In this document: piece by piece, positions 44,092 to 45,311 of the stretch
How positions within the stretch are numbered: the first letter of the stretch is position 1
Layout: each line of letters opens with the position of its first letter
Assembly (NCBI RefSeq): GCF_900102615.1
Contig: NZ_FMYV01000002.1
Location: 248,001-312,000, forward strand
Direction: 5' to 3'
From: Geotoga petraea
GTDB lineage: Bacteria > Thermotogota > Thermotogae > Petrotogales > Petrotogaceae
DNA: 64,000 nucleotides
Translations under genes and position numbers: made by a program
Notes under the pieces: model-generated
What the model was told of the DNA's origin: nothing
What the model saw: the letters and a program-made list of their open reading frames with translations, nothing else
Databases searched by the model: none

Positions 44092-44120
44092 TTGACTTTT
44101 GTTATTTTTTTTGATAATAT
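44092..44120 (+). promoter_or_regulatory. Promoter for the asparagine synthetase leader
   Basis: TTGACT (44092-44097), 17-base spacer, TAATAT (44115-44120), starting just after the kinase stop. A start near 44127 would give a leader of about 195 bases. Confidence 0.6.
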
Positions 44121-44158
44121 TGATTAAACTTAATTAAACTAAATGACAGGTGATTATT

Positions 44159-44236
44159 ATGAAATTTCTTTCAATATCCATAAAATTTAATATTTATAAT
44201 AATAATTTAAACAGCGTACGGTTAAAACGCGAGTAA
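44159..44236 (+). CDS. Asn-rich attenuator leader peptide
   Basis: 25 codons, ATG 44159, TAA 44234-44236, with AGGTGA 5 bases upstream. Residues 11-18 read NIYNNNLN: five Asn in eight residues, using AAT four times and AAC once. The Asn codons sit just before RNA segment 1 of the attenuator, and the stop lies just after it, the expected positions for charge-dependent stalling and release. The product itself probably has no function. Confidence 0.85.
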   Translation: MKFLSISIKFNIYNNNLNSVRLKRE

Positions 44237-44296
44237 TGTTTTTGCATATATAACCGGCGCTGTTTTTTGTATTCAGCGCTGGTTTTTTTATTTTTC
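44211..44296 (+). promoter_or_regulatory. Ribosome-mediated transcription attenuator of the asparagine synthetase gene
   Basis: Three segments: 1 (44211-44223), 2 (44252-44263), 3 (44274-44284). Segments 1:2 pair over 11 bp with a small internal loop (ACAGCG and CGGTT with AACCG and CGCTGT). Segments 2:3 pair over 11 bp (one G-U) and run into a T tract from 44283, an intrinsic terminator. The pairings exclude each other. When Asn-tRNA is scarce the ribosome stalls upstream, 1:2 forms and transcription continues; otherwise the ribosome covers segment 1 and 2:3 terminates. Confidence 0.85.
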
Positions 44297-44323
44297 CGTG
44301 AAAAATACTAAGGAGGGATTTTT

Positions 44324-45277
44324 ATGGAAAGGTTAGAAAAAAGAAAGGTTGATACAGTTTCATTGGTAAAGTCATATGTTGAGAATGATTACTATTCTAA
44401 TTTATTAATCATTCAATCATCTATTTTACAGTCTATGAGAGAATTTATGATTTCTGAAGGTTTTTTAGAAATTTTACCAGTTATCATTTCTCCTATAACA
44501 GATCCACTTAATCATGATATTTTTGATGCATCGATCGATTACTATGGTTATTCATATTCTATTACTAAATCGATGATACTTCAAAAACAGGTGAGCACAT
44601 TAGTTACAGATAGAATTTTTTCTATGTCTCCTAATTTGAGGTTAGAATTAGAAAATCGTTATGAAGACAAAAGACATCTTATTGAGTTTGTTCAAATGGA
44701 CATGGAAGTTGCTAATGCAAAAAGAGAAGAAGTTATGGATATTATGGAAAGACTTTTGATTCGAATTATTTCTGAGATCACTGTAAAACACACAAAAATC
44801 ATTGAAAAATATAATTCTGGTTTAGTCATTCCTAAAAAGAACTTTAAAAGAATTAGAGTTCAAGACGCAATTGAAAAATATGGAGATTCTTATGAAAAAA
44901 TATTGTCAGCAAATGCAAAAGAACCTTTCTGGTTAATCGATATTCCGATTATGGACAGAGAATTTTATGATAAACAAAATCCTAATGACCCAGATTTTTT
45001 ATTAGACTTTGATCTGATTTATCCTTTTGGCTATGGAGAGGCAATATCTGGTGGTGAAAGAGAACATGAATATGATCAAATTATAAAAAGAATGGATTTA
45101 AAAGGAAACTCAAAAAATATATTTAAAGATTATCTCGATTTATCAAAGGAAGGCCTTTTAAAACCAACTGCTGGTTGTGGAATTGGAATTGAAAGATTGA
45201 CAAGATATATCCTTGGTTTGGAGCATATCGAAAAAGCACGATTATTTGCTAAATCTCCCGGTAAAATCTCTATATAA
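44324..45277 (+). CDS. Asparagine synthetase of the aminoacyl-tRNA-synthetase-like type (AsnRS/AspRS paralogue)
   Basis: 317 residues. A class II synthetase catalytic core without the N-terminal anticodon-binding domain found in AspRS and AsnRS. Motif 2 is seen as DKRHLIEFVQMDMEVA (about 115-130), the flipping/acid region as GYGEAISGGEREHEYDQI and motif 3 as GCGIGIERLTRYILGL near the C-terminus (Arg291). This matches the archaeal-type asparagine synthetase, related to AsnRS, that amidates aspartate with ammonia and ATP. The Asn-codon attenuator upstream independently supports asparagine formation. Plain asnA (E. coli type) is less likely on motif grounds. GGAGGGATT ribosome site. Confidence 0.85.
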   Translation: MERLEKRKVDTVSLVKSYVENDYYSNLLIIQSSILQSMREFMISEGFLEILPVIISPITDPLNHDIFDASIDYYGYSYSITKSMILQKQVSTLVTDRIFSMSPNLRLELENRYEDKRHLIEFVQMDMEVANAKREEVMDIMERLLIRIISEITVKHTKIIEKYNSGLVIPKKNFKRIRVQDAIEKYGDSYEKILSANAKEPFWLIDIPIMDREFYDKQNPNDPDFLLDFDLIYPFGYGEAISGGEREHEYDQIIKRMDLKGNSKNIFKDYLDLSKEGLLKPTAGCGIGIERLTRYILGLEHIEKARLFAKSPGKISI

Positions 45278-45280
45278 CTT

Positions 45281-45311
45281 AAATCTCACTTTTTAGTGAG
45301 ATTTTTTATTT
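45281..45311 (+). terminator. Intrinsic terminator after the asparagine synthetase gene
   Basis: Stem AAATCTCACT (45281-45290) with AGTGAGATTT (45295-45304), loop TTTT, then a T run. Confidence 0.9.

Follow-up and report, generated by a model that had tools for sequence, protein, structure and literature searches.

We identified, upstream of an asparagine synthetase gene, a short leader ORF with a run of Asn codons followed by two alternative RNA pairings, and we consider it highly likely that this arrangement is a ribosome-mediated attenuator of transcription that senses charged tRNA-Asn specifically. The attenuator is predicted to switch on asparagine synthesis as Asn-tRNA charging falls. 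The locus lies on the forward strand of the 64-kb stretch of DNA that we analysed, which is called the window throughout.

Leader ORF, alternative pairings and downstream gene

Immediately 5′ of the leader lies a promoter-like site on the forward strand (44092..44120; TTGACT-17-TAATAT, 9/12 matches, with a TG preceding the −10 element). Promoter-like sites with at least 10/12 matches were found upstream of the leader at 28 of 44 loci, compared to 3.0 expected from shuffles. The leader has its own ribosome-binding site, AGGTGA (44148..44153, forward strand), with 5 nt from its end to the ATG, and relatives carry ribosome sites of the AGGTG or GGAG type at the equivalent place. The leader peptide ORF, MKFLSISIKFNIYNNNLNSVRLKRE (44159..44236, forward strand), has 25 codons and runs from the ATG at 44159 to the TAA at 44234-44236. 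Codons 11, 14, 15, 16 and 18 specify Asn, and the control region (44189..44212, forward strand) contains these five Asn codons within eight. An earlier note on this DNA had described a 25-codon ORF with its own ribosome site and five Asn codons in eight positions, and we found each of these elements in place. No other small ORF on either strand of the window combines a ribosome site with at least five Asn per eight codons, and no other has at least four identical residues per eight codons followed by a terminator. When the leader's own genome was searched with the five-Asn pattern, hits were no more numerous than with a reversed-pattern control, and none looked like a second leader on inspection.

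Three RNA segments on the forward strand can form the alternative pairings. Segment 1 (AACAGCGTACGGTT, 44210..44223) is the 5′ arm of the antiterminator. Segment 2 (44252..44264, with AACCGGCGCTG at 44252-44262) is a shared arm, whose partner is either segment 1 in the antiterminator or segment 3 in the terminator. Segment 3 (CAGCGCTGGTT, 44274-44284) forms, together with a T tract, the 3′ arm of an intrinsic terminator (44274..44289) that lies ahead of the structural gene, and the relatives are organized likewise. The leader stop codon is located 10 nt 3′ of segment 1, and the antiterminator, which is exclusive of the terminator, has a 5′ arm that a ribosome at this stop codon could cover. 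The three segments, the T tract after the last of them and the stop codon shortly past segment 1 had all been proposed in the earlier note and were confirmed here. Its further claim of two mutually exclusive 11-bp pairings stood for the 2:3 terminator hairpin, which has 11 bp including one G-U (−18.0 kcal/mol); the 1:2 pairing contains a small internal loop and is not a perfect 11-bp helix. At −21.3 kcal/mol (z = −5.4), the 1:2 pairing was matched by 0/300 shuffles. The hairpin escaped a generic terminator scan on account of its 11-nt loop, and the overall folding energy of the leader region was unremarkable (z = −1.3). The evidence therefore comes from the specific pairing alternatives and their conservation.

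The downstream gene (44324..45277, forward strand) encodes an asparagine synthetase A of the archaeal, AsnRS-derived type, 317 aa in length and without the anticodon-binding domain. It matches NF005054 (NCBIfam) with 408 bits against a cut-off of 309, which bears out its initial description as an AsnRS-like asparagine synthetase. The closest solved relatives, PDB 3p8t (‘Archaeal asparagine synthetase A’, E 3e-58) and 1nnh, are AsnRS-derived archaeal enzymes of the same family as the controlled enzyme. The gene product aligned along the 294-aa archaeal enzyme, and AsnRS models align only from about profile position 131. Judged from its sequence, the product is predicted to form free asparagine from aspartate and ammonia. 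No AsnB-type asparagine synthetase scored above the cut-off in the genome. A separate full-length gene is AsnRS-like by sequence resemblance alone. We also found gatB in the genome; tRNA-dependent Asn synthesis may therefore occur as well. A terminator-like hairpin at 45281-45304, directly 3′ of the asparagine synthetase gene, suggests a one-gene transcription unit.

Conservation and covariation across Thermotogota

The gene was matched in 49 of the 103 genomes of the phylum, and we examined the upstream DNA of 48 homologous loci from five families. Asn codons occupy the control position, directly before segment 1, at 48/48 loci, and 39 of the 48 have at least four Asn per eight codons. The nine weaker loci are eight of genus g11, with two or three Asn and in some cases Asp, and one other, L043, with Asp-Asn-Asp-Asn. 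Controls taken from neighbouring genes at the same loci had at most 3 Asn per 8 codons, and 0/17 reached 4; the sole ‘other’ hit in this control was a fragmented target gene. Both AAT and AAC occur in 38 of 44 Asn runs, and selection therefore acts on the amino acid and not on a DNA repeat. Outside the Asn run, the leader peptide is not conserved between subfamilies. An archaeal relative (L031) has no Asn leader, unlike the Thermotogota loci. A genome_contigs scan beyond the phylum gave three distant matches, and 398 genomes in the phylum of genome G105 gave none, at a threshold where the controls also gave none. We also considered asnS as a further attenuator target and ruled it out, as no Asn leader was found upstream of this gene in 11 genomes (0/11; maximum 3 Asn per 8 codons).

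The alternative 1:2 and 2:3 pairings recur in the relatives, with a median antiterminator z of −5.0 in 42 scored loci; from this set L034, whose terminator had been mis-assigned, was dropped afterwards, and L035 and L038, which have a weak T tract, were left unscored. Stem sequences differ by family (GCGTCGGT, GGCCGATGG and GGCCGGTGAC types). Segments 1, 2 and 3 read CAGCGTCGG/CCGACGC/GCGTCGG in subfamily A1, CATCGGTC..GGGTT/AACCC..GGCCGGTG/CACCGGCC in subfamily A2 and GATCGGTC/GGCCGATGG/CCATCGGCC in subfamily A3. What the subfamilies have in common is limited to the Asn codons and the complementarity. The terminators showed two-sided changes in 10 cells (0/500 shuffles) and, in a second test, in 5 cells (0/500), counts that are not probabilities because the sequences are related. 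At some positions all three segments change together, from T-A-T to C-G-C. Antiterminator pairs co-vary weakly within subfamilies and often keep pairing through G-U. Compensatory change, as looked for in attenuators, is thus present, with weaker evidence for the antiterminator than for the terminator. The earlier note had proposed to look for Asn-rich ORFs upstream of orthologues and for covariation in the stems, and had named a lack of Asn enrichment or of stem conservation in close relatives as grounds to abandon its reading. We observed the opposite, with Asn codons at every locus and alternative stems kept through compensatory change.

A structured leader preceding a biosynthetic gene would also be expected if the RNA bound asparagine, uncharged tRNA-Asn or a protein directly, as a riboswitch, T-box or similar element, and the ORF were incidental. 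We regard this explanation as exceedingly improbable. No Rfam family scored at or above its gathering score in the window, and none of relevance appeared at a relaxed threshold in seven loci. The amino-acid leader families of Rfam (Trp, His, Leu, Thr and others) fell short of the gathering threshold and were not matched, and the T-box model was unmatched in both the window and the seven loci. T-boxes were not found among the Fusobacteria/Thermotogae genomes surveyed in PMC2494555. Across the subfamilies, moreover, there is no conserved aptamer-like core.

Nascent-RNA folding and the proposed switch

We modelled the attenuator by nascent folding, in which only the RNA 3′ of the ribosome footprint was folded, with the polymerase positioned where the terminator loop ends. 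The footprint was assumed to reach 13 nt past the first base of the A-site codon. With a ribosome stalled on the first Asn codon, the median probability that the terminator 5′ arm is sequestered was 0.85; it was 0.15 for a ribosome at the stop codon, and 0.81 for the untranslated leader. For the leader in the window, the corresponding values were 0.97 at codon 11, 0.90 at codon 14, 0.74 at codon 15, 0.00 at the stop codon and 0.96 without translation. A stall at codon 16 or 18 is predicted to mask segment 1 and to favour termination.

In the proposed mechanism, RNA polymerase would start near 44125 and a ribosome would translate the leader. If Asn-tRNA were scarce, the ribosome would stall at the first Asn codons (11, 14, 15) and leave segment 1 free to pair with the emerging segment 2; segment 3 would stay unpaired, and transcription would run on into the gene for asparagine synthetase. 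If Asn-tRNA were plentiful, the ribosome would reach the stop codon and cover part of segment 1, segments 2 and 3 would pair, and transcription would end near 44290. The asparagine made by the synthetase would close the regulatory loop. The dependence on asparagine itself is read from the codons and is, to that extent, presumptive. The trp/his-type attenuator logic first suggested for this locus is supported, as a prediction, by the Asn runs, the conserved alternative stems and the nascent folding.

Equilibrium folding of the complete leaders, which preceded the nascent folding, was uninformative as a test of the switch, since the terminator prevails at most loci even when a ribosome is stalled on the leader. 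The decision must therefore be kinetic and co-transcriptional, as in trp. The stability of the terminators and their dominance at equilibrium would equally suit a constitutive, asparagine-independent terminator, with the leader setting a basal level or serving translational coupling or reinitiation, and a leader ORF close to a gene can work through reinitiation (PMC4833913). Such a terminator would leave both the Asn runs at all loci and the conserved segment 1 unexplained, and the leader stop codon and the gene are separated by roughly 67-227 nt, too far for translational coupling in most members. We therefore judge this alternative to be very unlikely and retain the Asn-specific attenuator.

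A protector hairpin that terminates transcription when the leader is not translated, which marks the trp-type subclass, was not found in most members. With no robust trp-like 1:2 protector there, the untranslated leader is therefore predicted to read through. Pairing of the Asn codons themselves with complementary sequence further 3′, possible in L036 and in some Petrotoga-type leaders, would supply a termination default without translation.

Known attenuators and further sites in relatives

We found no Asn-specific leader-peptide attenuator in Rfam or in the literature searched. A 2013 survey listed attenuator specificities for His, Leu, Thr and Trp (in Rfam) as well as Ile/Val and Phe (PMC3766115). 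The proteobacterial trp, his, leu, thr, phe and ilv attenuators resemble the present one in their leader rich in the regulated residue, exclusive antiterminator and terminator, T tract and downstream biosynthetic gene; they differ from it in that the attenuator described here is specific for Asn, mostly has no strong 1:2 protector and occurs in Thermotogota. Vitreschak et al. reportedly predicted attenuators for other amino acids in some Thermotogales in 2004. The Corynebacterium ilvB-II uORF and ilvBNC attenuator (PMC10272879, PMC11857589) share with it a conserved uORF, alternative hairpins and a non-proteobacterial host, but concern branched-chain amino acids and other genes and sequences. 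The uORFC-8-2 upstream of cysS in Rhodobacterales (PMC8632094) is likewise a leader predicted by comparative genomics from the codons of one amino acid, but it has Cys codons, a tRNA synthetase as target, and another sequence and phylum. The T-box leaders of Firmicutes, including those of some asnS operons, likewise respond to tRNA charging and act on a terminator, but they bind the uncharged tRNA directly and have no leader peptide (PMC2494555). The mechanism is of a known, classical kind. What appears to be new, relative to the literature searched, is its specificity for Asn, the family of genes that it controls and the tail arrangement described below. If the attenuator operates as predicted, it would be a direct tRNA-charging sensor for asparagine in Thermotogota and would explain how an archaeal-type enzyme is controlled in bacteria.

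We built covariance models from three subfamilies, which are available for annotating the Asn attenuator, and used them to search for further sites. An Asn leader with an attenuator lies directly 5′ of glnA (TIGR00653, type I glutamine synthetase) in three genomes (L116, L118 and L119; in L116 at 282-430, reverse complement). Five genomes of the Petrotoga-like genus g3 have a site between the gene for the glutamate synthase small subunit and amtB-glnK (L095 at G014:C22:26500, L096 at G012:C1:1972402, L097 at G016:C25:42957, and also in G002 and G018). Here there is no separate leader, and the Asn run is the C-terminal tail (...EYLISSNNNNNKQRRLKTL) of the glutamate synthase small subunit. In the 196-residue fragment used, TIGR01317 matches up to residue 183, and this match is followed by the Asn tail. 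The five genomes are 93-99% identical at this site, so that conservation is weak evidence and the structure, with an antiterminator z of −5.1, is the better support.

The same type of Asn leader thus precedes glnA and amtB-glnK, which would also be compatible with the sensing of another nitrogen cue, with the poly-Asn stretch serving to slow or arrest translation in general. Genus g8 has leaders of like build (L098, L099 and L101), with Asp codons where an aspartate--tRNA(Asn) ligase gene follows and Thr codons where thrS follows. These match the downstream enzymes, and codon identity therefore tracks the product, as expected of an attenuator and not of a general nitrogen cue. The residues outside the Asn run vary between subfamilies, which speaks against an arrest peptide, and we judge the nitrogen-cue explanation to be very unlikely. 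The glnA and amtB-glnK sites suggest that Asn-tRNA charging serves as a nitrogen-status signal. On balance we lean slightly towards a phylum-wide Asn-codon nitrogen circuit in Thermotogota, comprising asparagine synthetase and, in some lineages, glnA and amtB-glnK, with the g3 gltD tail as a sensor. As part of this circuit, the sensing codons in Petrotoga-like genomes would have shifted into the tail of the upstream enzyme, translation of the structural gene gltD would provide the sensor for the operon genes that follow it, and the end of a structural gene would take over the role of a leader peptide.

The models also returned sites of other kinds. The weak hits L120, L122, L123 and L124 were set aside on inspection as chance or unclear. 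At L121, a His run (WHHHHS) precedes a His-tRNA-synthetase-like gene, with a weak antiterminator (z −1.2), and at L125 a Met-rich leader (MMAMMM) precedes an aspartate kinase gene, again with a weak antiterminator (z −2.3). L100 (579-679) has an attenuator-like site before an ABC transporter operon and a leader ORF without a clear amino-acid run. At L115 (225-382), an Asn leader (DNNNNN) and a terminator precede a 589-aa ORF that belongs to no Pfam or NCBIfam family.
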